The notes below the pieces were generated by a model, which worked only from the letters and a program-made list of their open reading frames with translations, was not told where the DNA came from and made no database searches. This document shows, in pieces, positions 1,136-62,979 of a stretch of DNA of 64,000 nt (the first letter of the stretch is position 1; every line of letters begins with the position of its first letter). The stretch spans positions 1-64,000 of the forward strand of contig NADL03000185.1 of NCBI GenBank assembly GCA_002205965.3, read 5' to 3'. Both the position numbers and the translations under genes were made by a program. The DNA is from Kappaphycus alvarezii. Its lineage: Eukaryota > Rhodophyta > Florideophyceae > Gigartinales > Solieriaceae.

Positions 1136-1425
1136 TTCATTAGATAGCTGTATTAATTATGTAATCCGCTCAGCAATGCAGGACTGTAGCATGGCTCGTG
1201 ATGTGCGCAAATTCGCACACGAAAAAAATCTAGATGAGGACCATGATTGTATACAGTATCGGAATTGGGAAGATATTTTTACAGTTTTGAATTTGCAAGA
1301 CATTTTTAATTTTGGGTGAGTGCGGCAAATTCGTCGGTTGATTTTTTCATTTTAGGACACGCTGTCATAGTAGATGTCAGTACAGTTCCAGGTTGTGGGT
1401 GATAATACAAGTAGCTCTGAAAGGT

Positions 1426-1440
1426 CTATATAATGGCCAC
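1426..1440 (+). promoter_or_regulatory. Upstream TATA box in U3, directly before an ATG
   Basis: TCTATATAATGG: the TATA box overlaps the first ATG of U3. In the long LTR classes the corresponding place is a TATTTAAAG box upstream of the U3 coding block. In class a the ATG opens only a frame of about two dozen codons. Confidence 0.5.
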
Positions 1441-1601
1441 ATCAATTCCCACCCCTGGCCGATGGTGGCTGGCATGGGTATGGCACCTAGATATTTACCT
1501 TGAGGAAATATCTTCTAATAGTCTCTCTGGTTCACACGATTACCGTGAATACATTTATGGTTATTAGTATGTTTGTTTGAGACTTTTGGGGTAGCCAAAA
1601 G

Positions 1602-1612
1602 TCTATATAAGC
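1602..1612 (+). promoter_or_regulatory. Main LTR TATA box
   Basis: GTCTATATAAGC is conserved in the LTRs at 232, 8400, 37836, 45280 (minus), 62660 and 15485 (minus). It sits about 30-60 bp before the R hairpins, as expected for the start of the genomic RNA. Confidence 0.7.
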
Positions 1613-1917
1613 CGATTAAACTGCTTCCTTTAGTGGAGGTGAAGGAAGTTGGCAGACAACTTCAAGCCAGTCCCGAGTAGTAGGAAGTTGAGAGTCAACT
1701 TCAGACCCAAGAAAACTTTTTCCTAAGCTGGTCGCAGAGCGTCGGTGGTAGACCGTGCCCCTTTTATACTTGCTTGTAGCTTTCTCAACTTTCTTCTATG
1801 TACACTCCCTTTTGTTCGTTCAACAATACCACGGTAGCACTTTTGTCGCTCGCAACACCTCCTTCTCAGGGTAATTGGTTCTGAGGTTCTCTTCCCCCGC
1901 CGATTTACCCTATCATT

Positions 1918-1935
1918 TGGTACTCTTGTGGAGGG
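1918..1935 (+). other. Candidate primer-binding site of gypsy B
   Basis: Two bases after the LTR end the sequence begins TGGTACTCTTGTGGAGGG, and the same string follows the 5' LTR of element D (38151) and, inverted, element C. TGG fits pairing with a tRNA CCA end; I cannot name the tRNA. Confidence 0.45.
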
Positions 1936-2003
1936 GGTTGCACCCGAGGTATTCGAGTTGAGCAGTAGTAAGGAAAACTTCGGGGGATTTTTTTTCTGTA
2001 ATC

Positions 2004-3000
2004 ATGGATCTCAACGCTGCTCGTATAACGTTCACAGGGGGCAAGACTGAAGACGTTGAGGAGTTTCTTTACACATATATCAACGTTGTGATGCGAGAGA
2101 AGGGCGACGAAGAGAAGGCCGCAAGTATCTTCGCCTATCTCATGGTGACGCAATGCACAAATATAAGTCCAAGTTTATCGACGGGTGGTCTCTTAACGGG
2201 AATGGGCGTAACTTCGGTGAGGTATGTGAGTGGCTTGTGAAAGAGTATGCTAAGGAGGTAGAACCAGATGAGATGATTCGTACCGCCATAGAGGCCCGGC
2301 TCAACTTCGACGATTGTTAAGCTCATTGGTGTACTTGTGTGATCTTTATGAAAAGGCTGGGTTCAACGCCCAAGCCAAGTACGGAATGCTGCGTAAGGCG
2401 GCTATGGGGGATAAGCGGCGTCTCCGATTTCCTCCTCATCAAGGGCCCTCACACTTTGATGAACTGAAGGGTACCATGGTAGAATTTGTCAAAAATTCGG
2501 AGACGTTTCAGTCACTGAGTGAAGTACCGAGGGAAACCCGCACATCGATGTCTATCTTACATCCTGAAAAGAATTATCAAATGCCGGCTACAAGGGCTGC
2601 AGCATTGGAATCTGTCAGGAGCGATGTCAAACATTTGGAAGAAAGGTTGGAAACCCGATTCGATAATCGACTTGACATGATAACCTCGCAGTTGAAAGCC
2701 TTACTTTTACCATTAAGAAGAACCAGTCTGGGGCCCCTAAGGCCGCAGAAGTCTGTTCTTACTGTCACAAGCCTGACACTTTGCAAACAGGTGTCTTGAT
2801 AATCCACATAGAAACACTCGTTGTGGAAAGTGCGGTCGATATGGGCATCATGAAAGTAACTGCTGGTCTAAAGACAACAGAAGAGCAAACTTATCGGAAG
2901 CAAGGAGTGAGTCAGGACCAGAGGTGAAAATCTTACAAAATAGAAGGATCAAAGGTTGACGGATGCCGGTAACGTATCCATCGCTGAAGAGATTAGTCAA
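2004..3000 (+). pseudogene. gag: gag region of gypsy B
   Basis: It begins MDLNAARITFTGGKTEDVEE and includes a capsid-like helical region (CDLYEKAGFNAQAKYGML) followed by a region with zinc-knuckle remnants. The related gag of copy C shows two CCHC knuckles (CSYCHKPGHFANRC and CGKCGRYGHHESNC). Here the gag is a fossil with several breaks. Confidence 0.8.
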
Positions 3001-3399
3001 GTCAATGTGACAAAAAGGGATGGGGAAGGGAACATTTTATCGAAGAAACCTAGGCTAGATTATGGAATGCTGGAGCATATCCCAGCATCTGTACCTCCTC
3101 GAACCAAGAGGTCTGATCAAGTTGTTCCAGGAGTGGGAGTCACTCCGGCCAAGAAGACGAAAAAGAGTAAGAAAGTTAAGAGTATCTCTAAGGACGTATT
3201 AGAGTATGTGAAGAGGTACAATTTGATGGCTGAGCTTGCATCGGCCCCAACTGGGATAACGTTTGTTCAACTTTTGAGGGGCGACGCAGAGGATGCGAGA
3301 AAAGAACTCAAAAAAATTATTCAGGTCTAATAAGTCCGCTATGGGTAAGAAACTGTTTCTTCAATCGGCCTCGACAGCACCAAGACGTCTTAAGCTGGT

Positions 3400-3800
3400 A
3401 CCAGTCAAATTATTGGGTACGAAAACCCAAGCTCTCTTCGATTCGGTGCTGTTCCAAACCTCATTTCAGAAATTTGGTGACAGATCTAGGTCTCGACATT
3501 ACTCCAACGACTCTAAGAATAACTGTGGCGGATGGAACCGTCTCAAAATGCATGGGCACTGTTGACAATGTTTCCGTGTTCTTTGGTGACTCTAAAGTTG
3601 ATGTAGACTTTCTTTTCATGCCGGATCTCCCTTTCGATGCAATCATTGGCTGCCCTACCATGGAAAGACTAGGGACATGCATTGACTTGGGTAACCAAAT
3701 GGTTTCAGTTAATATTGACGGCAGAACCGTGAAGAGGCCCCTGGATTTCGACCAAAGCACGCATCCTGAAGATTTTAAAAGAAACGGACAGTGAAGATTT
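3400..3800 (+). pseudogene. Aspartic protease region of gypsy B
   Basis: The region matches the protease of copies C and D, where the active-site strand reads ALFDSGAVPNLISETLV. A downstream LPFDAIIGCP strand is also typical of retropepsins. This copy is broken. Confidence 0.7.
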
Positions 3801-4367
3801 CACTCCTAGCTATGACAGCGAAGATTCGAAACCAACTAACACTTTCGGAAGTGGAAAATGGTACCCTCGGGGGGTAATGACATGGCATGGGACGATTATG
3901 ATTCTGGGTTTGAAACAGATGACGACTGGAATTCTAGGATAAGTTTGAAACCCGAATGTGTTTCTTTTTTGCGATGATATCGAACCAAAGGACAGAATTC
4001 GGAGCATGAAAGAAGATTACCTTTGCAAAGAAAATAAGAATACGTCGAATTCCACATATGAAGATGTGAGCACGACGGAAGAGGTCCTTCAAAATTTTGA
4101 GGTTGGATCAAGAAGAAAAAGGGCGCCAAATGGCAGAAATCCAAGGAAAGTGCAGCACCTTCCCGCCCCCGCCTCACTGAAAATATCCGACATGTTAACA
4201 TCTTCCGAAGTAATTGCATGGAGCGTTTCAGATTTAAGACAAGCAAGTGTACCAGTTACTCACTCCTTCGATACTTACCGACACTCAACCGATTTATCAC
4301 AAGCCTAGACATCAACCGCCAAAATATGACCAATTTATCTCAAAAAATGTTACAAGTATGCTGAAAA

Positions 4368-5774
4368 ATGATATATATTCGACCAGTTTCATCCCCATGG
4401 TCGTTTCCAGTTGTGGTCGCACCAAAGAAGGATGGAAAGCTGCGTTTTTGCGTCGATTACCGACAACTGAACCAGAGAATGATACCCGATCGATTTCCGA
4501 TTCCGAACATGGAGGAGATCCTCGAGGACCTGAAGGACGGGAGATATTTCACCTCAATTGACCTTTACACTGGCTATTGGCAGATTCCATTGGATGAAAA
4601 ATGTAAGGAAAAAACAACCTTTACCAGCAAAGCCGGTACGTTCAGGTTCGAAGTGATGCCTTTTGGTCTCATGAATGCACCAGCTACATTCCAAAGAATG
4701 ATGAACGAGGTTTTGAAAGGACTTCCATTCGCAAGAGTCTATATCGATGATGTCGTCATATTCTCAGAAACATTGGATCAGCACATCTCGCACGTCAAGA
4801 CAGTTGTGGAGAGGATATCGGAGTATAGCTTGAAAATTAAGTTGAGCAAATGCTTCTTTGCGAAAACTTCTATCCAATTACTCGGTCATATCGTCGACCA
4901 AGAGGGAATTAGAGTGGATCCAGAGAAAACGAAAAAAATAAAGTTGGCACCAAGGCCCGCTTCAAAGACGGAGGTCCGAAGCTTCTTAGGACTGGCCTCA
5001 TATTACAGAAGATTTATCAAAGATTTCGCCAAGACTGCAGCACCGTTACATGCCAGCACTACGAAGAACGGAAAATTTTACTGGAACAAGGAAATGGAAA
5101 CTGCATTTCAGGAGCTTAAAGATAAGCTATGTGTCCCCCCAGTTCTCATGTACCCAGATTTCAAGAGACCATTCGTTGTGGAGACAGATGCCTCAGAACG
5201 GTCTTTGGGTGCCGTTTTGTCCCAAAAAGATGAAAACGGAAGACTACACCCTGTTCAATTCGCAAGCCGAACTCTGAATGATGCGGAAAAGAGATACTCA
5301 GTCTGCGAGAAAGAAGCGCTAGCTGTCGTCTTCGCGCTGAAAAAGTTTCGCGTATACCTTTTATCACTCGAGAAATTTGTCTTGATAACTGATCACCAGG
5401 CACTTAAAACAGCATTCCAAAAGAAGGATGTACATCACCGCTTGGCCCGATGGCTCGACATTTTCGCAGAATATCGGTTTGAAATTGTGTATAGACCCGG
5501 ACGCAATAATCAGCCTGCCGATTACCTATCCCGCTTGAGGGACGCACTGATTCCAAATGAAAAAGCTTCGGAGGACATCGTCGGAGTCGCCGAGTTGCAG
5601 TTGCCGAACGATAACGAGTACGAAGCTAATATTCACGGACTGATCAAATTCCTCGATGGACTAGAAATGAGAAAGGTTGATCTTGAACACGAAATTGGGT
5701 ACGCAGGAATCAAAAGGCTTTTACATTGTGGAATGGGAAACTCTTCCGGCACACTAAAGCCGGTCCCCGACTAG
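4368..5774 (+). CDS. pol: Reverse transcriptase and RNase H of gypsy B (open)
   Basis: The 468-residue open frame contains RT blocks in order: DGKLRFCVDYRQLN (about 22-35), TSIDLYTGYWQI, TFRFEVMPFGLMNAPATFQ and the catalytic YIDDVVIFSE (about 124-133). Next come the thumb/connection motif LGHIVDQEGIRVDPEK and FLGLASYYRRFI. RNase H follows with VETDASERSLGAVLSQ, EKEALAVVFALKKF and LITDHQAL. This is the standard Ty3/gypsy layout and it reads open here. The same stretch in D (40581-41498 and onward) is almost identical. As an internal part of a retrotransposon polyprotein, its ATG is not necessarily a real start. Confidence 0.92.
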   Translation: MIYIRPVSSPWSFPVVVAPKKDGKLRFCVDYRQLNQRMIPDRFPIPNMEEILEDLKDGRYFTSIDLYTGYWQIPLDEKCKEKTTFTSKAGTFRFEVMPFGLMNAPATFQRMMNEVLKGLPFARVYIDDVVIFSETLDQHISHVKTVVERISEYSLKIKLSKCFFAKTSIQLLGHIVDQEGIRVDPEKTKKIKLAPRPASKTEVRSFLGLASYYRRFIKDFAKTAAPLHASTTKNGKFYWNKEMETAFQELKDKLCVPPVLMYPDFKRPFVVETDASERSLGAVLSQKDENGRLHPVQFASRTLNDAEKRYSVCEKEALAVVFALKKFRVYLLSLEKFVLITDHQALKTAFQKKDVHHRLARWLDIFAEYRFEIVYRPGRNNQPADYLSRLRDALIPNEKASEDIVGVAELQLPNDNEYEANIHGLIKFLDGLEMRKVDLEHEIGYAGIKRLLHCGMGNSSGTLKPVPD

Positions 5775-6940
5775 TGGCCCCTTTGAAAGAAAGAATGAAG
5801 ATCTTGAGGACTTTCCATGATGAGCTAGGGCATTGGGATCTCGAAACAACCAAAAAATTCGTAACTGAGAGATTCTGGTGGCCCGGTATCCATAAGGACG
5901 TCTATAATTTCGTGAAAAGCTGCGACAACTGCCAAAAATTCACTCCAATACGGAAGTATAAGACAACTCTAAGTTTTCCAGTTTCCGGTCTCTTTGAAAC
6001 CTTCTCAATTGACTTCGCGGGCCCGTTCAAGGAAACTTCTTCCGGAAACAAATATCTCCTTATAGGGGTGGAACATCTTACTGGATGGCCAATAGCAGTT
6101 GCAGTCGAGGAGGCAAATGCTGAGGTGGTACTGAGATTCATCGAAAAAGAAATAATTGAACCGTTTGGTCTTCCAAAAAGGATCATCTCGGATAACGCCC
6201 TTTGTTTTACTGCAACTTCACTGCTTCGTTTTTTGGAAGAGAAAGGGATTCAGCTGAAGACCGTTCTCGCATACGCTCCTATGTCCAACGGGAAAGCGGA
6301 GAGGATGGTTGGAACCATCAAACGAGCAATATCGAAAACTATGTTGGAGAATGAAATCCAGTGGGAAGATGCCTTACCAAAAGTGTTATACGGCTACCGT
6401 CGAAGAAGAGGAAGAAATGGACGCTCACCATTCGAGCTAATGTACGGAAGGGCTCCTAGAATGTTACAGAGAGACATGGAAACAAATATTATCGATGAAG
6501 AGAGTAGGGAAGTTGAACTACTGGCCACCGAAGGCTGGAGATCACACCGCGCGCTAACACAGACAAGAAATAAGGATGCAGAACCTGCAGTCAGAACCTT
6601 TTCAGTTGGCTCTAAAGTACTTGTAGTACATGGAAAAGCAATGCAGCAGGCTGTGAAGTGGCCGGCCTTCCAAACCAAGTACTCGAACCCTTGCATCGTC
6701 ACGGAGGAAAGACACCCGCACTATCAGCTCTGTTCAAGCTCAGGGAAGAGATCAAGGAGGGCCATCCATGCACGTCGTCTGGTCCCTTACCATCAGAGGC
6801 CTGAAGAATTCCTTCTCACACAGGACTATGCGCAACCACGGGGCATACTCATCTTTAACTATAGAATGATTCCTATGGGAGGAAAAAGGGCCTGGGAATG
6901 GATCATCTCGTTACGCGGGACTACTACGAACTCCACGTAA
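5726..6940 (+). CDS. Integrase of gypsy B (open)
   Basis: An N-terminal zinc-binding HHCC motif is visible (HDELGH about 25 residues before CDNC). The catalytic core has SIDFAGPF (first Asp), IISDNALCF (second Asp) and SNGKAERMVGTIKR (Glu), a DDE layout. A long basic C-terminus follows; it lacks a chromodomain. The frame overlaps the preceding RT frame by 49 bases and the following ORF3 by 43 bases. It would be produced as part of pol and acts in the nucleus to insert the cDNA. Confidence 0.9.
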   Translation: MWNGKLFRHTKAGPRLVAPLKERMKILRTFHDELGHWDLETTKKFVTERFWWPGIHKDVYNFVKSCDNCQKFTPIRKYKTTLSFPVSGLFETFSIDFAGPFKETSSGNKYLLIGVEHLTGWPIAVAVEEANAEVVLRFIEKEIIEPFGLPKRIISDNALCFTATSLLRFLEEKGIQLKTVLAYAPMSNGKAERMVGTIKRAISKTMLENEIQWEDALPKVLYGYRRRRGRNGRSPFELMYGRAPRMLQRDMETNIIDEESREVELLATEGWRSHRALTQTRNKDAEPAVRTFSVGSKVLVVHGKAMQQAVKWPAFQTKYSNPCIVTEERHPHYQLCSSSGKRSRRAIHARRLVPYHQRPEEFLLTQDYAQPRGILIFNYRMIPMGGKRAWEWIISLRGTTTNST

Positions 6941-7962
6941 TCATCCATTTCTACATTAATATATGCCTATGTTTTCGTACGTTGAACGGACCATTGCTAC
7001 CTGAAGAAGATTTCCGACTATTAATAAGAGTTCTATTTTCATTCCAAAACGGAAGGTTCACGGAAGCAGGTCCAGAGTTTGTGGAGGTAATATATCATTA
7101 CTCTATAGGAAGATATGGAATGGTAGCTGCTGGAGACTTGTCGCAAACGTATCTGAATATTATCCGTCCAATTTACGTATTTCTCAAGAACAACCAAGAC
7201 GTGCGACTGAGAGGTTACGCCTTACCCCCGGATATGGAATACAGGCTGGTCCCGTATCCTCTATGGGAACCTTACGTTTCTCCGCCACAAATTGGGAACG
7301 TTGGAGGCGGCGAGGATCCTCCTGAAGCAGTGATGATGACCAGAGGAGGACCTTCAGGAGACAACAACCCGCCCAGAAGAGGTTCCGGTCGTCCCCCGAG
7401 AGGACCTCGTGCAGGTCCCAGTACGTCAGGAGCTGGTCGCGGCCATTCATCGGGACCGTCCACCACAACTTCATCTCTAGCTCTCCTTCACAACCATGCA
7501 CAGCATACAGTCGGAAGAAGAAGATTATCTTTTTGGCTGCGCAATATCTCCGAGGATGCGAACGATGCGCAGGTCATTTCTTATTTCATGATAAGCATCT
7601 GTTTATGTTTTAGGGCGCTACATGGACCGCACTTATCTTACGAAGATTCGTTCTTGATGATGCGCGTCTTCTTTTCTTATCGACATCCATTCCTCCGGCA
7701 TCTTCCAGAAGAGTTTGCATATCACATATATTTTTTCACTCTTGGAAGATTCGGAAGAGTCACGGAAGAAGAATGTATTCAACCCCACCTCGATGTTATC
7801 AAACCAATATATGAGGCTATGCTACAAAGTGAGGTACCAGTAATGCGAACCTACTTTTTAGAGCATCATATTGGTAATCAGTTGCATCCGTACCCGTTTG
7901 AGAGACCATACATTTTATCAATAAGACAGCGAACACTAACGGAAGCAGAAGAAGAGCAGTGA
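6898..7962 (+). CDS. Accessory ORF3 after integrase, two-module protein of unknown function
   Basis: This 354-residue open frame lies between integrase and the 3' LTR. It contains two copies of one module: residues about 10-125 (HFYINICLCFRTLNGP...YHYSIGRYGM...LNIIRPIY...YPLWEPYV) and about 205-330 (YFMISICLCFRALHGP...IYFFTLGRFGRV...LDVIKPIY...YPFERPYIL). Between them lies a Gly/Pro/Arg/Ser linker (about 130-195, RPPRGPRAGPSTSGAGRG). I see no signal peptide or clear transmembrane anchor, so it does not look like an envelope protein. A copy truncated at its 3' end lies at 9995-10265 (minus), and a fragment of the module end at 42535-42660. I do not recognise the module. Confidence 0.8.
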   Translation: MDHLVTRDYYELHVIIHFYINICLCFRTLNGPLLPEEDFRLLIRVLFSFQNGRFTEAGPEFVEVIYHYSIGRYGMVAAGDLSQTYLNIIRPIYVFLKNNQDVRLRGYALPPDMEYRLVPYPLWEPYVSPPQIGNVGGGEDPPEAVMMTRGGPSGDNNPPRRGSGRPPRGPRAGPSTSGAGRGHSSGPSTTTSSLALLHNHAQHTVGRRRLSFWLRNISEDANDAQVISYFMISICLCFRALHGPHLSYEDSFLMMRVFFSYRHPFLRHLPEEFAYHIYFFTLGRFGRVTEEECIQPHLDVIKPIYEAMLQSEVPVMRTYFLEHHIGNQLHPYPFERPYILSIRQRTLTEAEEEQ

Positions 7963-7981
7963 CGAGTCGGGACGTTCGTCT

Positions 7982-7995
7982 TGAGCGAGAGGGCG
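7982..7995 (+). other. Polypurine tract region of gypsy B
   Basis: GAGCGAGAGGGCG directly precedes the 3' LTR start at 7996. The same place in D reads GAGCGAGGGGGCG. This is the expected primer site for plus-strand DNA synthesis. Confidence 0.6.
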
Positions 7996-8713
7996 TGATG
8001 TGCGCAAATTCGCACACGAAAAAATCTAGATGAGGACCATGATTGTATACAGTATCGGAATTGGGAAGATATTTTTACAGTTTTTGAATTTGCAAGATAT
8101 TTTTAATTTGGGTGAGTGTGGCAAATTCGTCGGTTGATTTTTTCATTTTAGGACACGCTGTCATAGTAGATGTCAGTACAGTTCCAGGTTGTGGGTGATA
8201 CTACAAGTAGCTCTGAAAGGTCTATATAATGGCCACATCAATTCCCACCCCTGGCCGATGGGTGGCTGGCATGGGTATGGCACCTAGATATTTACCTTGA
8301 GGAAATATCTTCTAATAGTCTCTCTGGTTCACACGATTACCGTGAATACATTTTATGGTTATTAGTATGCTTGTTTGAGACTTTTGGGGTAGCCAAAAGT
8401 CTATATAAGCCGAGAAAACTGCTTCCTTAAGTGGAGGTGAAGCAAGTTGGCAGACAACTTCAAGCCAAGTCCCGAGTAGTAGGAAGTTGAGAGTCAACTT
8501 CAGACCCAAGAAAACTTTTTCTTACGCTGTCGCAGAGCGTCGGTGGTAGACCCTGCCCCTTTTATACTTGCTTGTAGCTTCTCAACTCTCTTCTATATAC
8601 ACTCCCTTTTGTTCTTTCAACAATAACACGGTAGCACTTTTGTCGCTCGCAACATCTCCTTCTCAGGGTAATTGGTTCTGAGGATCTCTCCCCCGCCGAT
8701 TTACCCCTTATCA
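7996..8713 (+). repeat. 3' LTR of gypsy B (class a, 718 bp)
   Basis: The LTR has the same structure as 1199-1915 with about 2-3% difference by eye. It is followed directly by host-like block X2, with the same flank (CAAACC...) as the LTR ending at 547. Confidence 0.93.
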
Positions 8714-8740
8714 CAAACCAAGGAATCGTCGCCTAACTGG

Positions 8741-9297
8741 TCATTTATCGCCTTTCTTACCTGACATATCTTCTTCCTCCTTTCTGCTTTGCCAAAGTTC
8801 TTGATGCACTTGGGATCCTTCCCCATTACGGTGTCGGTATACCCTTTTTGAGTCGATTGTGGTTGTCTGGAAAACCATGGGATAGATCGGATATACCTTG
8901 CAAGAGTAAAACACCCAAACGTTTCCCCTTGGGATCCTTGAGCAGGTCCCACTCTAGTCTCATCCCTAGAGAGAATAGAATCAATAGTCCATTGAACTGC
9001 ATTGCGCACTCTTCCGCTGTTTCGATGCAAGTCCGCCGCCGTCCGTAGTGCGGCCATCGCTCCGCAGTTCGTTGCATACTGTTTAGCCTCGGGCTCTCTT
9101 TTCAAAAGCTCTGCAAGTGCACCAGTGGCACCCCGTACAACACGCGGATTTTCTCTTCTACTGTTCAATATCGCCACAGGTGTGTCGCTCGCACCCACAA
9201 GCCGAAGCCTTTGCCGCAACCGTGACCCAAAAGACGAGAGGAACAGACAAGCTTGCAGTGCATACCACGACACCCGTGCACCTTGCACCCCAGCCAT
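8741..9297 (-). pseudogene. Armadillo-repeat-like host gene fragment, copy X2
   Basis: This is the second copy of the fragment at 576-1135, differing by only a few small changes and carrying the same LINE tail (8821-8927). From Met at 9297 it reads about 185 codons before the LINE tail takes over the frame. Its stop-side neighbour is again an LTR, 28 bp away. Beyond its start side the sequence runs on without an LTR (CATGGCTCGCTCACATTC at about 9350-9367), whereas X1 meets an LTR exactly after CATGGCTCG. X2 therefore preserves the uninterrupted side of the same locus. Confidence 0.55.
8821..8927 (+). mobile_element. Family-1 LINE tail in ARM gene X2
   Basis: This is the same insert as 656-764 in the duplicated locus, flanked by CTTGGGATCCTT at 8809-8820 and 8928-8939. 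Its presence in both copies shows the LINE insertion came before the duplication. Confidence 0.75.
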
Positions 9298-9360
9298 TTC
9301 ATTAATAGCTGTATTAATTATGTAATCCGCTCAGCAATGCAGGACTGTAGCATGGCTCGC

Positions 9361-9994
9361 TCACATTCAACATTTCGCCACTGCGCGATCGATCGATCAA
9401 ATTGGCAGCACCCTTCTACCCTTTTCCGTCATTCAGACTACTTCCTGACTACATAAAAGGACCCCACCATTGCTCTCACCACCTGCAACTCGTTCAAGGC
9501 CTCTTCAGACAAGATTTTCAAGAAAATCAAAGCATTTCTGATGAATTTTCCACTCTCGCAGATGATTTCGTATGCAGCAATGTCCACAATAGAAGTTTTT
9601 GGTCCTGAGGACAGCGCTACGGACACTGAAGCTATGCAGTTCGAACTACCTGACCTCCATGATGTTCAATGCCACTTAAAAGAGTTGCTATCGCCGCTAC
9701 GTGCTATATTGACTCCGGCGTTCTTCCAGCAGCCTCTGTTTGCCCTTGGCACAATATTTTGAAGTTGCCAAGCTGTTCGGGTTCTGAACAGTACTGGAGG
9801 AATGTTTGGATAAAGCCGTACCATTAGTCGAGGATTAAACCGACAATAGGATCTTCATGCATTCTGGTTTGCCCATTCCCTGAATGGCGATGCTGTTTTT
9901 GCACGACAAGTTGTTGTTGTATTCAAGGAAACACGCTAACTTGGATCCTCGTCTATCTCTCCGACGTCCGTTTCAGGTAGTCAACGCTCCACAC
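9361..9994. other. Unassigned single-copy stretch next to X2
   Basis: This stretch continues locus X beyond the LTR insertion point and stops where gypsy C begins. A plus-strand frame at 9541-9762 (MNFPLSQMISYAAMSTIEVF start) and a minus-strand frame at 9438-9626 are both short and unrecognised. An ACATAAAAGG TATA-like string lies at about 9450. Confidence 0.4.
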
Positions 9995-10265
9995 CAGAAG
10001 AATCATCAGATATGTTTGCGACAAGTCTCCGGCAGCTACCGTTCCATATCTTCCTACAGAGTAATGATATATTACCTCCGCAAACTCTGGAACCTGCTTC
10101 CGTGAACCTTCCGTTTTGGAATGAAAATAGAACTCTTATTAATAGTCGGAAATCTTCTTCAGGTAGCAATGGTCCGTTCAACGTACGAAAACATAGGCAT
10201 ATATTAATGTAGAAATGGATGATTACGTGGAGTTCGTAGTAGTCCGCGTAATCGAGATGATCCAT
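9995..10265 (-). pseudogene. ORF3 first module of gypsy C (partial)
   Basis: The sequence matches the first module of ORF3 in B, including HVIIHFYINICLCFRTLNGP. It ends where the element is cut off. Confidence 0.75.
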
Positions 10266-10289
10266 TCCCAGGCCCTTTTTCCTCCCATA

Positions 10290-11480
10290 GGAATCATTCT
10301 ATAGTTAAAGATGAGTATGCCCCGTGGTTGCGCATAGTCCTGTGTGAGAAGGAATTCTTCAGGCTCTGATGGTAAGGGACCAGACGACGTGCATGGATGG
10401 CCCTCCTTGATCTCTTCCCTGAGCTTGAACAGAGCTTATAGTGCGGGTGTCTTTCCTCCGTGACGATGCAAGGGTTCGAGTACTTTGTTTAAAGGCCGGC
10501 CACTTCACAGCCTGTTGCATTGCTTTTCCGTTTGCTACAAGTACTTTAGAGCAGACTGAAGAAGTTTGGACTGGAGGCTCTTCATCCTATTTCTTGTCTG
10601 TGTTAGCGCGCGGTGTGATCTCCAGCCTTCGGTGGCCAGTAGTTCGACTTCTCTCTCTCTTCATCGATAATATTTGTTTCCATGTCTCTCTGTAACATTC
10701 TAGGAGCCCTTCCGTACATTAGCTCGAACGGTGACCGTCCACTTCTTCTCTTCTTCGACGATAGCCGTATAACACTTTTGGTAAGGCATCTTCCCACTGG
10801 ATTTCATTCTCCGACATAGTTTTCGATATTGCTCGTTTGATGGTTCCAACCATCCTCTCCACTTTCCCGTTGGACATAGGAGCGTATGCGAGAACTGTCT
10901 TTAGCTGAATCCCTTTCTTCCAAAAACGAAGCAGTGAAGTTGCAGTAAAACAAAGGCGTTATCCGAGATGATCCTTTTTGGAAGACCAAACGGTTCAATT
11001 ATTTCTTTTTCGATGAATCTCAGGACCACTTCAGCATTGGCCTCCTCAACTGCAACTGCTATTGGCCATCCAGTAAGATGTTCCACCCCTATAAGGAGAT
11101 ATTTGTTTCCGGAAGAGGTTTCCTTGAATGGGCCGGCAAAGTCAATTGAGAAGGTTTCAAAGAGACCGGAAACTGGAAAGCTTAGAGTTGTCTTATACTT
11201 TCGTATTGGAGTGAATTTTTGACAGTTGTCGCAGCTTTTCACGAAATTATAGACGTCCTTATGGATACTGGGCCACCAGAATCTCTTCACAATGAATTTT
11301 TGGTTGTTTCGAGATCCCAATGCCCTAACTCATCATGAAAAGTCCTCAAGATCTTCATTCTTTCTTTCAAAGGGGCCACTAGTCGGGACCGGCTTTCGTG
11401 TTCGGAAGAGTTTCCCATTCCACAATGTAAAAGCCTTTTGATTCCTGCGTACCCAATTTCTGTGTTCAAGATCAACCTTT
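10290..11480 (-). pseudogene. Integrase region of gypsy C
   Basis: The HHCC zinc motif, FSIDFAGPF and IISDNA core strands match the integrase of B. It is broken. Confidence 0.85.
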
Positions 11481-15174: not shown

Positions 15175-16500
15175 TGATAGAGATAAATCGGCGGGGGAAG
15201 AGATCCTAAGAACCAATCACCCCAAGAAGGAGGTGTTTCAATAGACAAAGCGCTACAGTGGTATAGTTGAACGAACAAAAAGGAGTGGATTGTGAAGACA
15301 GTTGAGAGAGCTAAAGCAAGTATGGAAGGGGCAGGGCCTACCACTGATGCTCTGCGACCAGCGTAGGAAAACTGTTTCTTGGGTCTGAAGTTGACTCTCA
15401 ACCCCCTACTACTCGGAGCTTGACTTGAAGTTGTCTGCCAACTTGCTTGACGTCCACAAGAGTAAGCAGTTTACTCAGCTTATATAGACTTTTTGGCTAA
15501 CCCTAAAGTCTCACAGAAACATACTAAGAACCGCAACATGCCCCAAATGGAATCGTGTCAACGAGAAAAACTAACACCAGATACTATCAGGATAAATATC
15601 TAGGTTCTTTCCTTAATATCTTATAATTCTAGATCAGAGCCAAACAGTTCCTCCAAAATATCCATCCCACCCAGGCAGTCCACAAAAATATCCGCGAACG
15701 GCCTAGAATTCTCCATTGCCTCCTGCTAAATATCTAGATCACTGAGGACGCTCACATCCGTTCCAGAGTCGGGACCATCTGGTCCATATATTCTGGACCC
15801 TTTCCCACTAATCCAGTACTTTCCATGTCTCCCTCCCGCTCATCTTCCTCATTCTCCTCTTCATTTCCCTCTTCATCTTCGTCAGAAGAGTCAGAGATCA
15901 CAGTTACTCCCTCAGTCTCCCCTTCATTCTCCATGGGAGCCCCCCACCGTTACACACTAGTGGCTCCCACGGATCCAGGCAGTCTTCCTCTTCTTCCTTC
16001 TCTTTCTTCTCTGTATCTTCTGCCTGCTCGAAGCAGTTACGGCGGACCCACTCCCGGACGCGTTCCCGGTCCAACCTTTTACAGTAATCATCGCAGTCAG
16101 TTGGGCCACTTTCCATCAGTGCCAAAGCGTTGAGTGGACGACGGCCTCGGGATGACTTGGTGATGGTGAGGGAAAGGCGGAGGCTGGTCATGTTAAGGGC
16201 CAAAAGAAGGGGTGGGCTGATGGGGTAGTTGATGGCGGGGGTTGCCTCAACGACGTCCATCTCGAACTTTAAATACTGCGACGTCTTCGAAAATTATGAC
16301 GGCCTTGGGTGTGTACAGAAATGTCATCTATTAATGACATCGTGTCTCAAAATAGAAAATCAACAAATGATTTGGCCACACTTTTCCAAATTAAAATATC
16401 TTGCAAATTCAGAAACTGTAAAATATCTTTCGTATTCCGATACTGTATCCAATTTGGTCCTCTTCTAGACTTTTTTCGTGTGCTTATTTTGCACACATCA
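15175..16500 (-). repeat. 5' LTR of gypsy C (class b, 1326 bp, with U3 coding block)
   Basis: On the minus strand it starts TGATGTGTGCAAAATAAGCAC at 16500 and ends ...CTATCA at 15175. Its first ~200 bp and its last ~430 bp align with the class a LTR. Between them lie about 600 extra bases that encode an acidic protein. The R hairpins and main TATA box are present. Confidence 0.88.
15640..16260 (-). CDS. U3-embedded coding block of class b LTR (fossil)
   Basis: Minus-strand frames within U3 encode, in order, a start at about 16260, a block reading SGPTDCDDYCKRLDRERVRE, an acidic low-complexity stretch (EDEEGNEEENEEDEREGD), MVPTLER, and a C-terminal block with PFADIFVDCLGGMDILEELF. The same blocks in the same order occur in the LTRs at 44971-46436 and before 62979, which argues for past selection as protein. 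A TATTTAAAG box lies just upstream (about 16265). It lies in more than one frame here, so the copy is broken. No known family recognised; the acidic, Leu/Phe-spaced C-terminus recalls transcriptional activation regions, which is only a guess. Confidence 0.6.
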
Positions 16501-34784: not shown

Positions 34785-37430
34785 CTAACCTGTAGACGCA
34801 TAGGAAGAGCGTGATTCATATTTTGGCAATGAAATAGGTAACCAAACTTCGAATAGCATCACCTGCGGAGGTGCTGCAAGTGGACTATCTTTCTTTGTGA
34901 GAGGATCTGCCAAATTTGTTGCACCAGGGATACAGATGACTTGGTTGCGCTGGTGTGTTCCAAAGTAGTATCTCAACAACTGTACATCACCCGGGTGCTC
35001 TTGTCCTCTGAGCATCGACAGGTCGACATAGAAGTGAATAAGTCTTTAGAATCAACAGCGGTTGAAAGATGAATATCTATATCTAGTAACACCTTGTAGG
35101 CACATGATATGGTACGTCCTTCATCCATAGCGCCACCAGCCGCAAGCACTTTTGCGGAAGCAATGGATTTTACAGGGACCCTCGAAAAATGAGAAGACCA
35201 ACTCAGAGGGTGAAAAGTAGAGTTTGTCTGGAATGGCCCTATCAAATGACCAGCAACATAACCAAGTTGCCAATTTCTGACGGTTTCGCAGCATCAGCAA
35301 AAATAGGAGCAGATATATCAATTGAACCACGCGACGAGGGTCCATTATATGTAAGTATAGTACCAAGTCTCTTAACTTCACGAGGTGTACTAGTTTGCCG
35401 GATGATGCCATTTACTGTGGGCTCTCTAGAAGTCTGCTGCAATGAACTAGACGCATATACAGCAAAAGGGCTCACAGTAGATCCAAGAAATCCCAATGAA
35501 CGATTCACAGACATAAATTTGTGAAGTTCTACTGCATTCAATGTTTCTCTTTTCTCCTTTTGTCGGAGGTATGTTAACTCATATGGTTCAGTTGCGTTCA
35601 GCTTTTCTTGATCCAAAATAAGAACAGTGGCATCTTCATTCTGCAGAATATTCATACCAAAAAACTTGAATTCGCCAGGCATGTGCAAAATTGTCCCAAT
35701 CTTGTAAACATTGGCAATCCTTTGAATAAATTATTTCCTAACATGATCCGGACCACCACCCAGATTATCGCCTACTCCTTTTTCAGTGACTAGTATCAAC
35801 TTACCGCCCTTCTTCAAATAAAACAACTTGGGAACGTAGACTACACTCGATAATTCAAGGTCTATAAATGCTGAATCCGAGTGCCTCTGCCACTTGGCAT
35901 TGGAATTTTCAAGTCCGTACGATGCCACCTTGACCAACCAAAGAATGACCTCTTGGAACACTCACCAGGCTGGATCACATAAACATCTCTCGTAGCTGCT
36001 CCAGATCAGAGGAAAGCACTTTTGATATCAGTATTACTCAAGAACCAAGAATAAAGTGTACATGTTGATAATATTATGCGAATCCTCAGAGGAGGACATG
36101 AAGCGGAATCAGTTCTGACATGAAATATTTCCCGGTCCTTATTACTACGGGGGCAATGCGGGCCTAACATGGTAGTTTGGCAGCATCCAGGACCTTCTTT
36201 TTGTGCAACGCATTACTGCTAATTACGTTAGAATCACGAGGTACCTTTGATACATGTATTTCATCACATTTTTCCAAGATTACAGACTCTTCATCCTAAT
36301 ATGCATTGTGTAGCGCAGACGTAGGCAAGCCTTGTGTGTGATGGCTCAGGAATTCCTTCGACTTGAACCGATAGTAGTACTGTCTAAAATATTCCTGCTC
36401 ACATGATTTGATTTGATTCCCAGGTAACAGCTCAATTTCATTAGCCAGTATTGTATCGTGCATTGAATTAACTTCTTCCAAATCATCCGATGGTATGTGC
36501 ACAAGATGTTCATCTGCTATAAGATGTAACGGTAGACCATGATCTGAATTGATTTCTTCCGCAGGTGCTTCTTCATTTACACAACCCATACCATAGTCAT
36601 CAGGCTTTTTCTTGGCTCCACCCGCTGTATGAGATGCTTTTCGATGCTCAAAATTGCCTTCGAGATTCAATGAACGTCCCAGAACTTTATTACACTGACC
36701 AATAGCCTTCTGAACGGCCAGTGCCAGGCCATTCGTGTCACTAACAGCATGGCGCACATCCTCGATTGCTTCCCTAATAACTTTTCCTTATTTCCCAGGA
36801 ACAGAAACAATCTCAGCTGAACTATCATATTCCAGCACAGACTTTGGCAACAAACAGGCTCCTCGCTTATGTTTCTGGTCTTTGGGGTACACCTGTACCA
36901 AGTCCCCAAGCTTTACAACTTTCTTTTTGGATAAATTTCTTCGACATGATAGCATTTAGCTTTCCCTTCCCAATCATCTCACTGTGTTGGTCTCTCATCT
37001 CGCTCGGAAAGTGGATCGGATATACATCTGTCATTGGGCGAGTAAGCCCTTTGCAAGTTCTTATGCACTGGCAACATCATTACCGCACAAATCGTTAGAT
37101 ATTCTCAACGTTAGACTTACCAATAAACGCTCGTTACAATCTTGATTCGCAAATTGTACACATATTAAAATGTCTTTCAAGACCGTATTCTTCGATTCAA
37201 AAGCATTCTTGCTATGACGCCTTGCCGAAACAGGTCGAAATGTAATTCCCAGTTTTTTCACATATACCTGAAATTCATCGGGCTTAAAGGCTTGGTCTCC
37301 ATAGATCGCTACAGGAGCCCAAAATTGAGAAATAAAACTATTTTGTAACAAGCAAATGGCATTGCTAATGTTGTTTGATTTCGCACCGTCTCCAGCAGAA
37401 AACGGGTAACCGCATCCATTCTGTGAAAAG
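34785..37430 (-). mobile_element. Ty1/copia fragment E
   Basis: On the minus strand from right to left: integrase core (37450-37061, with FWAPVAIYGDQAFKPDEFQV and RRHSKNAFESKNTVLKDI), a linker with acidic segments (36757-36296), RT/RNase H pieces (35688-34973) and an RNase H end (QLLRYYFGTHQRNQVICIPG, ATNLADPLTKK). The integrase strand 'RPVSARRHSKN..ESKN' is of the copia type found in marine eukaryotes and differs clearly from G. It ends exactly at the 5' LTR of gypsy D. It is a fossil with several breaks; no LTR found. Confidence 0.8.
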
Positions 37431-38148
37431 TGATGTGCGCAAATTCGCACACGAAAAAAATCTAGATGAGGACCATAATTGTATACAGTATCGGAATTGG
37501 GAAGATATTTTTACAGTTTTTGAATTTGCAAGATATTTTTAATTTGGGTGAGTGTGGCAAATTCATCGGTTGATTTTTTCATTTTAGGACACGCTGTCAT
37601 AGTAGATGTCAGTACAGTTCCAGGTTGTGGGTGATACTACAAGTAGCTCTGAAAGGTCTATATAATGGCCACATCAATTCCCACCCCTGGCCGATGGGTG
37701 GCTGGCATGGGTATGGCACCTAGATATTTACCTTGAGGAAATATCTTCTAATAGTCTCTCTGGTTCACACGATTACCGTGAATACATTTTATGGTTATTA
37801 GTATGTTTGTTTGAGACTTTTGGGTAGCCAAAAGTCTATATAAGCCGAGTAAACTGCTTCCTTTAGTGGAGGTGAAGCAAGTTGGCAGACAACTTCAAGC
37901 CAAGTCCCGAGTAGTAGGAAGTTGAGAGTCAACTTCAGACCCAAGAAAACTTTTTCTTACGCTGGTCGCAGAGCGTCAGTGGTAGACCCTGCCCCTTTTA
38001 TACTTGCTTGTAGCTTCTCAACTCTCTTCTATATACACTCCCTTTTGTTCGTTCAACAATACCACGGTAGCACTTTTGTCGCTCGCAACACCTCCTTCTC
38101 AGGGTAATTGGTTCTGAGGATCTCTTCCCCGCCGATTTACCCCTATCA
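37431..38148 (+). repeat. 5' LTR of gypsy D (class a, 718 bp)
   Basis: Starts TGATGTGCGC at 37431 and ends CTATCA at 38148. It has the same TATA boxes and hairpins as the LTRs of B and the same candidate primer-binding site downstream. Confidence 0.93.
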
Positions 38149-38236: not shown

Positions 38237-39160
38237 ATGGATCTCAACGCTGCTCGTATAACGTTCACAGGGGGCAAGACTGAAGACGTTGAGGAGTTTC
38301 TTTACACATATGTCAACGTTGTGATGCGTGAGAAGGGCGATGAAGAGAAGGCCGCAAGTATCTTCGCCTATCTTCATGGTGACGCAAAGCACAAATATAA
38401 GTCCAAGTTTATCGACGGGTGGTCTCTTAACGGGAATGGGCGTAACTTCGGTGAGGTATGTGAGTGGCTTGTGAAAGAGTATGCTAAGGAGGTAGAACCA
38501 GATGAGATGATTCGTACCGCCATAGAGGCCCGGCTCAACTTCGACGATTTGTTAAGCTCATTGGTGTACTTGTGTGATCTTTATGAAAAGGCTGGGTTCA
38601 ACGCCCAAGCCAAGTACGGAATGCTGCGTAAGGCGGCTATGGGGGATAAGCGGCTCTCCGATTTCCTCCTCATCAAGGGCCCTCACACTTTTGATGAACT
38701 GAAGGGTACCATAGTAGAATTTGTCAAAAATTCGGAGACGTTTCAGTCACTGAGTGAGGTACCGAGGGAAACCCGCACATCGATGTCTATCGTACATCCT
38801 GAAAAGAATTATCAAAGGCCGGCTACTAGTGCAGGCATTAGAATCTGTCAGGAGCGATGTCAAAAACTTGGAAGAAAGGTTGGAAACCCGATTCGATAAT
38901 CGACTTGACATGATAACCTCGCAGTTGGAAAGCCTTACTCTTACCATTAAGAAGAACCAGTCTGGGGCCCCTAAGGCCGCAGAAGTCTGTTCTTACTGTC
39001 ACAAGCCTGGACACTTTGCAAACAGGTGTCCTGATAATCCACATAGAAACACTCGTTTGGAAAGTGCGGTCGATATGGGCATCATGAAAGTAACTGCTGG
39101 TCTAAAGACAACAGAAGAGCAAATTTATCGGAAGCAAGGAGTGAGTCAGGACCAGAGGTG
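38237..39160 (+). pseudogene. gag: gag region of gypsy D
   Basis: MDLNAARITFTGGKTEDVEE opens a 220-codon frame with the capsid-like region. The nucleocapsid shows CSYCHKPGHFANRC, one clear CCHC knuckle. It is broken in its second half. Confidence 0.85.
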
Positions 39161-44970: not shown

Positions 44971-46436
44971 TGATAGGGATAAATCAGCAGGGGAATAGAT
45001 CCTCAGAACCAATTACCCCAAGAAGGAGGTGTTGCAAGCGAAAAAAAATGTTACTGTGGTATAGTTGAACGAACCGAAAGGAGTGGATAGGGAAGACAGT
45101 TGAAGGGGCTACAAGCAAGTATGGAACGGGTAAAGTATACCACCTATGCTTAGTGACTAGCGTAAAATAAACGCTTTTAGTCTGAAGTTGACTCTCAACT
45201 TCCTAACTACTTGAGACTGGGCTTGAAGTTGTCTGCCAAATTGCTTGACCTCTCCACGAGGAAGCAGTTTACTCAGCTTATATAGACTTTTGGCTGTCCC
45301 TGAAGTCCGAACAAAACTACAGAAGGAACCAGGAAATGCACAGAAACAATTTGTGTGGATGATATACTCTAAACAAAAGATACTTAAGAAACTAACAATC
45401 AATGAGGTCCTCTTATTTTCCATTCTGTAAATTGGATCCAAACAACTCCTCTACAATATCCATGCTGTCCAAGCAGTCCCATAAATATCTGCGAACGGCT
45501 CATAGCTCTCTGTTACCTCCTCGTAGATATCTAAAATACTAAAGATATCTCCATCCGGTTCCAGCGTCGGCACCACGTGTCCCAAACTTTCAGACAGGCC
45601 CCAACAGTCCAAAATTTCCATTCCCTCTGTTCCCTCATCCACCTTGTCGCCGTCCTCCTCCTCTTCCTTCTCCTCCTCCTCCCCATCCTCTTCTTCCTCC
45701 CCATCTTTCTCCTGAGTCTCGTACACTAGCTCAGGGGCTAACCATTCTCGAAGGACTCCCCGCTCTCCTCCTCGATTTCTCAGTCTCATCTTCACTTACC
45801 TCCCTCGCCTCTTCTTCTATGAGAGGCGGCAAGCGAACGCGATGATTTCTTCTTAGTTTGCCGCCGGATGGAGTTCGTCGGCATCGGTTTGGCCTGTAGG
45901 CGGCGAGACGGAGGCCATTGACGGAATGGGAAGGGCGGTTTTTGGAGAGGTTTTTGGAGATAGGGACAGAGGGGCGATTTGGCGTCATATTTCTGGAAAA
46001 AGGGGTGAGCGCGGTTGCGGATGTTGACAGAAAGGGGTAATCACCTTATCGAATGTTGGTGGTAGGAGTTGATGCTTCAGCGACAATTCTATAGCACTTT
46101 AAATAGGGGCATGTTCTCTTGGTAATCATCATGGTCTTCGGTCAAAAAAAAAGACGATACTGCGGCCTTGGATTTGCATGAATTAGGGACATCGTAAAAA
46201 TCTGCGTGATAAAATATCGGAACTGAATTTTGGCGAGGTGAAGTGACCACGAGTTGAAAGGCGTCTCTTTGAAGGAGGAGGACCAAATATTCAAACATAA
46301 AATAGAAGTTGGAGTTGTGCAGTGAATTTGGATTCATAAAGGAAAAAGATATCAGAATTTGTTTTGGGAAGACAAAGGTAGGCGATTGGTCAAGGACGGA
46401 TTTCAAGATGGGAATAGGACCTTTTTTGTTCCGACA
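44971..46436 (-). mobile_element. Solo gypsy LTR, class c (1466 bp), in copia gag
   Basis: It is flanked by a 5-bp target duplication GTCTC (44966-44970 and 46437-46441), and the copia gag reads on across it. On the minus strand it starts TGTCGGAACAAAAAAGG at 46436 and ends CTATCA at 44971. R-U5 with main TATA and hairpins (about 45180-45300) match gypsy B/C/D. U3 carries the acidic coding block. Confidence 0.92.
45425..45988 (-). CDS. U3-embedded coding block of class c LTR (fossil)
   Basis: Minus-strand pieces in order are MTPNRPSVPISKNLSKNRPS at 45988, WLAPELVYETQEKDGEEEED with a long Glu/Asp run, HVVPTLEPDGDIFSILDIYE, TESYEPFADIYGTAW and, near the end, SMDIVEELFGSNLQNGK. The blocks correspond one for one with those in the LTRs at 15175-16500 and before 62979. 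A CTATTTAAAGTGC box lies at about 46100. The copy is broken. Confidence 0.6.
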
Positions 46437-61600: not shown

Positions 61601-62979
61601 TCCATGCAGTTTGTAATACAGAAAATGGTGTTCCCTCGTGTAGTCCAGCAACTTACAACGATCAAGCCCCTGACTTAGCTCACCGTCCTTTCCAAATTTG
61701 CCTACCATCCTGCCTAGATATTTTAATACTGTATCCTCTCCTCCAAATTAGCGTTTAAGTTTTTTATAATCTACCTTCTTCATCAAATTCACTCCTTATC
61801 TAGAAGTTTCGCGCAAATGCTCTACTGCAATTTCGATTTTAACTTGTTATTACCGTCTCCAGTCCGCCTCTAGGGTGTACTTAAATCCATTTTACCAAAC
61901 GTTTTTGAGATCTACCAACCCCTACATACATTACCCTCCCCCTCATACTTTCTATCCTCCGTCCACAATCGCCCCACTCCATTTACAACCAAAATGAACA
62001 ACCTTCGCCCCTCCGCCCCCATCACCAAAACCCGCCCCTCTCGCCACTTGAACGTCCTTGCGCTTGCTTCATATGGCCCGACGGACGTAGACGACTACCT
62101 GCGACGCCAGACTAAGAAAAAGATAATGGAGTTCGTCCGCAAACTCTTCGTTGAGGATGAGGCCGAAGAGATACCTGAGGGGCAGGGGTGGGATGTCGAG
62201 AGGAGCTGGGGAGATCTTCGAGGTGTGGGCAGCCCCGGAATTGGTCTACGAGGTTAACGACGAGGAGGACGAAGAGAATCATGAGGAAGATGACAGGGAT
62301 GAGAATGAGGACAAGGATGAGGACGAGGATGAGGACAGGGAGGCATGGGAAGTGTTTGAATTGTGATATGTATGGAACAAGTGTACCGACGATGGAATCG
62401 GATGGGGATATTTTAGTAGTTTAGATATCTCCGGATAGAGAGTTATGAGCCGTTCGCAAATTTGTGGGGACTGCTTGGGCAGCATAGATATTTTAGAGGA
62501 GTTGTTTGGATCTTATCTAGAGAACGGGAAATAAGAGGACCGCATTGATTGTTAGTTTCTTATGTATCCTTTGTTTAGAGTATATCGTCCACACAAAGTG
62601 TTTTTATGCATTTCTGGTATCTTCTGTAGTTTTGTTCGGACTTTAGGGATAGCCAAAAGTCTATATAAGCTGAGTAAACTGCTTCCTCGTGGAGATGTCA
62701 AGCAAGTTCGCAGACAACTTCAAGGCCAGTCCCAAATAGTTAGGAAGTTGAGAGTCAACTACGGACCCAAGATACATTTTTCTTATGCCGATCGCAGAGC
62801 ATCAGTGGTAGACCCTGCCCCTTTTATACTTGCTTGTAGCCCTCTCAACTCTCTTCCATATACATCCCTCTTTTTTCGTTCAACTATACAACGGTAGCAC
62901 TTTTTTTCGCTTGCTACACCTCCCTCTTGGGGTAGTTGATTCTGAGTATCTCTTCTTCCGACGATTTACACCTATTACA
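61600..62979 (+). mobile_element. Gypsy-family LTR with U3 coding block (probable solo LTR; left end uncertain)
   Basis: The right end CCTATTACA at 62979 and the R-U5 with TATA (AGTCTATATAAGC, about 62660) and hairpin strings (GAAGTTGAGAGTCAACT, about 62743) match the family. U3 carries the acidic coding block from 61994. No gypsy internal sequence follows, so it is a solo LTR or the 3' LTR of a lost element. The left boundary could not be fixed; from the class c length I expect it near 61.5 kb. Confidence 0.75.
61994..62520 (+). CDS. U3-embedded coding block, third LTR (fossil)
   Basis: In order: MNNLRPSAPITKTRPSRHLN, ASYGPTDVDDYLRRQTKKKI, AAPELVYEVNDEEDEENHEE, a long Asp/Glu run, TSVPTMESDGDI, and near the end DILEELFGSYLENGK. 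It matches the LTR of C (SGPTDCDDY) and the class c LTR (APELVYE, VPTLEPDGDI, DIVEELFGS). The ATG at 61994 follows a pyrimidine-rich leader and a CTTAAAT box at about 61880. The copy is broken. Confidence 0.6.

Follow-up and report, generated by a model that had tools for sequence, protein, structure and literature searches.

Long terminal repeats (LTRs) usually count as non-coding DNA, and the divergence between them serves as a neutral clock. A protein gene borne on an LTR is otherwise known mainly from a few retroviruses. The superantigen gene (sag) of the betaretrovirus MMTV is a full open reading frame (ORF) within U3, present in both LTRs and associated with U3 promoter activity; its product, the type II membrane glycoprotein Sag, engages vertebrate T cells. 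The coding region of lentiviral nef reaches into the U3 of the 3' LTR from a start outside the LTR, and Nef is a myristoylated, membrane-associated adaptor. Spumavirus Tas (Bel1) is an accessory transactivator whose activation region is C-terminal and acidic and which has an internal promoter close to the element's 3' end; it overlaps the 3' LTR only partly, and its internal promoter lies in env. We know of no system outside the retroviruses in which an LTR is a complete gene.

Two LTR retrotransposons offer partial parallels. In crapaud, from Podospora, LTR variation is concentrated in the U3 upstream of the TATA box and recombination occurs between subfamilies; the U3 variation is explained by promoter or enhancer selection, and the part of the article drawn on here describes no LTR protein (PMC10787394). 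The rice element Retrosat2 combines long LTRs with an additional ORF, ORF0, whose role is unknown and which is described as lying upstream of the gag-pol ORF; it is more variable than that ORF and is missing from some relatives; the part of the article drawn on here does not state a location in the LTR (PMC3485330). Titles and opening lines of abstracts in the open-licence literature yielded no U3-encoded protein in a Ty3/gypsy element, which agrees with the statement, in an earlier note on the present DNA, that no like protein was known from such elements.

The DNA analysed here (the window) is a stretch of 64,000 nucleotides from the red alga Kappaphycus alvarezii that contains several related Ty3/gypsy elements. 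By examining the long LTRs of these elements and their relatives in the rest of the genome, we arrive at a best explanation that, taken as a whole, we hold tentatively and with slightly less than even confidence: the U3 would carry a gene with its own promoter, whose product would be a nuclear regulator activating the genomic promoter.

Long LTRs and ORF remnants in the window

The window contains three long LTRs of different types, and the first also illustrates the presumed promoter of the genomic RNA.

15175..16500, minus strand: long 5' LTR (type A) of a truncated Ty3/gypsy element (self-blastn; at least 44 further match rows)
44971..46436, minus strand: solo long LTR, type B, flanked by the 5-bp target duplication GAGAC (read by eye; at least 43 further match rows)
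61612..62977, plus strand: solo long LTR, type C, flanked by the 5-bp target duplication CAGTT (from the sequence, row L096; at least 43 further match rows)
15480..15486, minus strand: TATATAA box, presumed genomic-RNA promoter, downstream of the ORF (from the sequence; 20-nt anchor around the box)

All three LTRs, first proposed in the earlier note, are real as judged by self-blastn and sequence, and both target duplications are perfect; the coordinates proposed for the first two hold, and those of the third are corrected from 61600-62979 to 61612-62977. The truncated element has a recognisable body up to about position 10006. Separate window ORFs of two elements match the Pfam families Asp_protease, RVT_1, RT_RNaseH, Integrase_H2C2 and rve, and in L145 a CCHC motif is visible in gag, followed by PR and RT; by domain order (Gag with CCHC, PR, RT, RNase H, integrase) the host element is Ty3/gypsy. 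Paired LTRs and target duplications, the marks of an LTR retrotransposon, are both present: three LTR pairs are 97.3-99.5% identical, and a survey that sought TG starts and exact 5-mers only found a perfect 5-bp duplication beside an LTR-like start in 35 of 117 LTR rows (hand count). A fourth pair, L071/L072, is identical, lies 3.1 kb apart and looks like a tandem duplication.

Three further observations concern the bodies of these elements. The pol of the family runs past the integrase into a tail (6898-7962, plus strand; also in the upstream flanks of L003, L008 and L012) that contains two related repeats of about 110 aa, ends almost at the 3' LTR, is open without a stop for 447 aa in L012, and has no Pfam match; its single-sequence model is all helical at very low confidence (pLDDT 38.6) and is uninformative. 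For the gag at 38237-38899, the protein collection contains two relatives, at 57-58% identity. At 49341-49532 there are three tandem copies at 62-nt spacing.

Within the U3 of each long LTR, on the sense strand, lies the remnant of an ORF.

15627..16191, minus strand: type A remnant of the U3 ORF, spread over three frames and interrupted by one in-frame stop (tblastn, query the intact L017 ORF)
45416..45988, minus strand: U3 ORF remnant, type B, frame-broken (tblastn with the L049, L110 and L095 ORFs)
61994..62531, plus strand: U3 ORF remnant, type C, first 87 codons open (87-aa open piece; tblastn)

None of the three is intact: frame changes and stops divide each into pieces that lie in two or three frames; the type A remnant, for example, falls into tblastn blocks at 16191-15919, 15943-15761 and 15773-15627. 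The peptide blocks described in the earlier note are therefore present, but its single coding interval, 15640..16260, is in fact a set of fragments in several frames. The order it gave (GPTDxDDY, APELVYE, acidic run, VPTLExDGDI, DILEELFGS, stop) is right, and an equivalent of APELVYE (EPLVC) is present in the LTR at 15.2-16.5 kb as well.

Intact copies of the ORF elsewhere in the genome

The genome searched comprises 336 Mb in 884 contigs. Its 22 match rows for LHC proteins and 17 for phycobilisome linkers, the latter spread over many contigs, point to a red-algal host; searches for Chitin_bind_4 and Zn_clus gave nothing, which speaks against an arthropod or a fungus as far as an empty search lacking a positive control can. 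DNA searches with the three window LTRs returned 6632, 6181 and 5443 first-look candidates, and scoring 40 of each gave at least 45, 44 and 44 match rows. Of the 120 stretches that we retrieved, which include the third LTR of the window itself, 117 have a 20-nt anchor around the genomic TATA box (at most 4 differences), the exceptions being L076, L125 and L142. By a position test, the ORF is intact in 17 of the 117 anchored LTRs (4/39 in the type A list, 9/40 in B and 4/38 in C), with an open length of about 180-210 aa. Among these 17, L075 lacks the N-terminus, L024 and L092 have a frame change near the C-end, L090 lacks the stop, and L120 is 177 aa long with an altered acidic region. A six-frame protein search with one intact 211-aa ORF gave 164 matches (best 150 of 11,096 candidates scored); among the 150 matches listed, 81 of 136 long rows have no internal stop (hand count, query included), which is not a genome-wide rate because frame-changed copies would appear as partial rows, and the proportion among best-scoring matches is far beyond chance. 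The outcome that the earlier note had set against its own proposal, that no other LTR would keep an open frame, is thus contradicted both in the sampled LTRs and among the best-scoring rows.

Three intact ORFs lie in 5' LTRs that are followed by the element's primer-site sequence (L039, L110, L117). The case for coding and function is weakened by one element whose two LTRs are 99.5% identical, since only L083 has an open ORF and L088 is broken. Fourteen of the 17 flagged ORFs were aligned and used for the group dN/dS and charge analyses (L075, L092 and L120 being left out); they form groups A, B, C and D with a common plan.

Selection on the ORF

With L024 and L090 also dropped, a codon model for the remaining 12 ORFs gave an omega of 0.163 in the N-terminal (N) block (lnL -1101.2 vs -1159.9 at omega 1) and of 0.522 in the C-terminal (C) block (-841.6 vs -846.4). 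Purifying selection is strong in the N block and modest in the C block. Across the two alignable blocks of the 14 ORFs, Nei-Gojobori dN/dS is 0.14-0.36 between groups where dS is unsaturated (it is saturated in the A-B comparison) and 0.46-0.59 within groups, and reaches 0.96 for the C block within group C. The deeper comparisons bear out the proposal of a protein under selection, with dN/dS below 1 (omega 0.16 and 0.52 in the two blocks) rather than near 1 across many copies.

The constraint is specific to the reading frame. In subsets of the 14 ORFs, the N block has a pN/pS of 0.27-0.48 when read in the ORF frame and of 1.28-2.05 when read in +1 or +2; low values (0.41-0.53) also come from one reverse frame, as expected because its silent positions overlap those of the ORF frame. 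The C block shows less contrast (0.30-0.50 in frame, 0.61-2.13 in +1/+2). These results bear on the alternative that there is no protein, and that the peptide blocks persist as conserved regulatory DNA or as a trinucleotide repeat. Such an alternative could draw on the broken state of every window copy and on the GAG/GAT-rich acidic run, which could expand by slippage; it is opposed by the full-length open frames of divergent copies and by the frame-specific synonymous excess in blocks outside the repeat, and we regard it as highly improbable. In their pure form, DNA conservation and repeat slippage are ruled out by frame-by-frame tests of the sequence on either side of the acidic run.

Within-group variants outside the acidic run were divided into those common to at least three copies (53 synonymous, 84 nonsynonymous, 5 stops) and those private to one (181 synonymous, 548 nonsynonymous, 25 stops). 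The two classes differ in their synonymous and nonsynonymous counts (53/84 vs 181/548; Fisher p=0.0011) and in codon positions (shared 35/43/64 vs private 242/251/261; p=0.022), and private variants are near the neutral expectation of about 27% synonymous. The shared and private counts are based on 36+34+36 copies of A, B and C. For these counts and for the neutral expectation, A is without L034, L071, L074 and L075, and B without L080, L083, L089 and L093-L096; in the counts for C, L122 was lost and L144, of another type, was left out. The window copies W15 and W44 were retained in the A and B alignments. Because shared variants are enriched in synonymous changes and private ones are near neutral, selection acted during the spread of the elements and ended after insertion: settled copies decay about neutrally, and selection is at the level of element propagation.

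The case for coding and function is weakened by the modest omega of the C block, by its value of 0.96 within group C and by the 5 stops among 142 shared variants. On balance, the U3 almost certainly holds a coding gene under selection, and comparisons between LTR subfamilies are not neutral here because part of the U3 has been under selection at the protein level.

A putative promoter in a modular U3

Upstream of each ORF remnant in the window is a second TATA-like box.

16268..16275, minus strand: TATTTAAA box, proposed ORF promoter, 84 nt upstream of the ORF start (from the sequence)
46098..46105, minus strand: TATTTAAA box; the type B ORF starts about 117 nt downstream (from the sequence)
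61878..61885, plus strand: TACTTAAA box; the type C ORF starts 116 nt downstream (from the sequence)

A TAYTTAAA box (TATTTAAA or TACTTAAA) is found at most 160 nt upstream of the ATG in 95 of 118 LTRs, at -84 to -118 in 90 of these 95, and in all four types into which the upstream sequence falls. TATTTAAA itself occurs in 31/39, 30/35, 1/32 and 8/12 LTRs of the respective upstream types, and in 0.7% of shuffled 160-nt stretches; in the third type, that of the window's type C LTR, the box is present in 25/32 when TACTTAAA is allowed. It is mostly at -84 or -85 in the upstream type of the window's type A LTR and at about -112 to -117 in that of type B. Between box and start, ATGs are depleted (11 vs 46.6 expected, 94 LTRs), and C is abundant in this leader (40% C, 9% G). 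In most intact copies the ORF stop is followed, after about 130-140 nt, by TATATAAG, the presumed genomic TATA box.

The surrounding U3 is modular. In 118 of 119 LTRs (L075 was left out), the roughly 250 nt upstream of the ORF are of four sequence types and the N block of five, and these occur in several combinations (U1 with N1, N2 and N3; N2 with U1 and U3; N1 with U1 and U2). Across 10 between-group pairs, most identities over the 300 nt upstream come close to the level of shuffled sequence, with exceptions at 0.69 (L095-L106, distal half) and 0.59 (L017-L039, proximal half); in R-U5 it is 83-91%. Some pairs of upstream types have stretches of 27-67 nt in common, so that the types are not fully independent and the promoter argument is weakened. 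When L095 is compared with the ORFs of group B, types B and D hardly differ in their C blocks (mean dS 0.08) and lie far apart in their N blocks (mean dS 1.6), a contrast that points to U3 mosaics formed by recombination.

The simplest reading of box, leader and ORF is a transcription unit inside the U3, and the ORF very probably has its own promoter there. The LTR thus seems to hold a putative promoter and an ORF ahead of the genomic promoter. In the proposed mechanism, a TATA-type promoter and an ORF of about 180-210 codons would stand just upstream of the promoter that makes genomic RNA, and each LTR with an intact ORF, solo LTRs included, would be a self-contained gene that does not need the rest of the element.

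A different origin of the protein would need no U3 promoter: the genomic RNA could encode it in a spliced or downstream ORF, as a factor for the virion, for assembly or for cell-to-cell passage. Among 24 flanked loci, three are 3' LTRs (L003, L008, L012) that stand directly after the post-integrase region known from the window's first element, and there the ORF follows pol, where env- or nef-like genes are placed. A dedicated promoter is a better match to the TATA-like box and to the leader, poor in ATGs and rich in C, and the protein has no hydrophobic stretch to serve as signal peptide or membrane segment, which makes this origin improbable.

Features and possible role of the protein

The 14 aligned ORFs have an N-terminal block, RPS..I.K..PSRP.N....GPTD..DY.RR.......VRR, a middle Asp/Glu run of variable length, and a C-terminal block, typically FADICxDCLxxMDILxELFGSD, that typically ends MDIL.ELFGSD.E. 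Their net charge is -31 to -65, with the first 55 residues slightly positive; in 13 of the 14, the last 39 residues have a net charge of -6 to -11 and 6-9 W/F/Y/L, the exception (+4 and 17 W/F/Y/L) being L090, which has lost its stop. Kyte-Doolittle hydropathy revealed no signal peptide or membrane-type hydrophobic stretch in the 14 ORFs: the maximum 19-residue value is 0.46-1.25 in 13 (L090 cut to 190 residues), and the highest, 1.64, belongs to L024, whose C-end is frame-shifted. A single-sequence model of the window's own 87-residue N-terminal piece has helices at 17-25 and 29-51 at low confidence (pLDDT 62.5), and the N-terminal part (GPTDxxDYxRR...VRR) is slightly basic and probably helical.

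Searches for relatives gave no Pfam family above cut-off for two ORFs and no recognisable DNA-binding domain, no PDB match below E 0.09, and no homologue among 5.8 billion proteins or in viral contigs. Pfam matches to acidic proteins (such as BUD22 and Nop14; E 0.02-8, all below cut-off) and one PDB match at E 0.098 were set aside as probable composition matches.

From its position and composition, our preferred reading of the protein, at about even odds, is a nuclear regulator that would act on the adjacent promoter. In the proposed mechanism it would act in the nucleus as an element-encoded regulator and would most likely activate the genomic promoter, which begins some 130 nt past the stop codon of the ORF, its N-terminal part binding U3 or chromatin and its acidic C-terminus recruiting the transcription machinery. 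By composition, the acidic and hydrophobic C-terminus may be an activation region. The activator reading is weakened because there is neither a recognisable DNA-binding domain nor a Pfam or PDB relative, and that the protein is specifically an activator is a possibility to which we give somewhat less than even weight.

The main rival is that the protein counters host silencing or modulates chromatin, as a histone- or SUMO-pathway-binding factor that keeps LTR chromatin open. The long Asp/Glu tract with nearby aromatics (e.g. EEWLAPELVYE) in the aligned groups would suit such a role, and group A ORFs add VIVIS[DG]SSDEDE, which we take, from general knowledge, to resemble a SUMO-interacting motif; a high copy number, suggested by the 5443-11096 loose first-look candidates, would also attract silencing. 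The SUMO-type motif is, however, missing from the aligned type B, C and D ORFs, and no domain match speaks for a chromatin factor, so that we consider this role rather unlikely.

Short LTRs without the ORF

The window also contains elements with short LTRs, in which a U3 ORF was looked for and not found.

1199..1915, plus strand: short LTR (about 717 bp) of a related element, without the U3 ORF block (self-blastn, LTR comparison)
7996..8713, plus strand: 3' short LTR of the same ORF-less element as 1199..1915 (self-blastn)
37430..38148, plus strand: another short ORF-less LTR (self-blastn)

The first two are 97.6% identical over aligned bases, and the body with the third is 97% identical to that of the first ORF-less element (1199..8713). 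Compared with the long type A LTR, the short LTR has both ends in common and lacks the ORF-bearing middle of about 720 bp. In an ORF-bearing element, 3.6 kb of body is 93-96% identical to three window bodies. Because ORF-less elements have spread on a body 93-95% identical to that of ORF-bearing ones, the protein would be dispensable or supplied in trans. The ORF-less short LTRs are the main evidence against an essential function in cis, and the short-LTR elements are possibly trans-dependent variants.

The existence of ORF-less variants would also fit a protein that limits its own element, through self-restriction or copy-number control acting on Gag or on transcription; with solo LTRs expressing such a protein, more copies would mean a higher dose. 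Spreading copies should lose a pure brake, yet the frame was kept by selection in lineages that spread, and we judge such a role quite unlikely.

Returning to the regulator, a fuller version can be stated, doubtful as it is and held with clearly less than even confidence: the LTR would be a complete gene, with a U3 promoter and a conserved acidic regulator upstream of the genomic promoter that it controls; solo LTRs would be potential trans sources, promoter modules and N-terminal domains would be reassorted among lineages, and ORF-less LTRs would be cheaters. Solo LTRs may then remain genes, and ORF-bearing and ORF-less LTRs on closely related bodies would constitute a testable case of conflict.

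Comparison with known systems

Among LTR retrotransposons, the red-algal family and crapaud both have U3 variation and recombination, and, as far as the part of the crapaud article drawn on here goes, a protein in the LTR belongs to the red-algal family only. Compared by description, in the part of the source drawn on here, Retrosat2 ORF0 is alike in being an extra ORF on a long-LTR element that is missing in some relatives.

Among retroviral genes, no sequence relation to the MMTV Sag, spumavirus Tas or Nef families was found in Pfam, PDB, 5.8 billion proteins or viral contigs, and the likeness is one of arrangement. Lentiviral nef also has coding sequence in the U3 and, unlike the red-algal ORF, starts outside the LTR. 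With Tas the red-algal protein would have in common the part of an accessory regulator (proposed here) with an acidic C-terminus and a putative internal promoter; unlike Tas, it has no counterpart of the Tas DNA-binding part that we could find. As in MMTV sag, the red-algal ORF lies in the U3, between the LTR start and the genomic TATA box, whereas the protein, acidic and without a membrane-like stretch by Kyte-Doolittle hydropathy, differs from the membrane glycoprotein Sag. The red-algal ORF suggests that the U3-gene strategy of some retroviruses had an independent origin in a Ty3/gypsy element.
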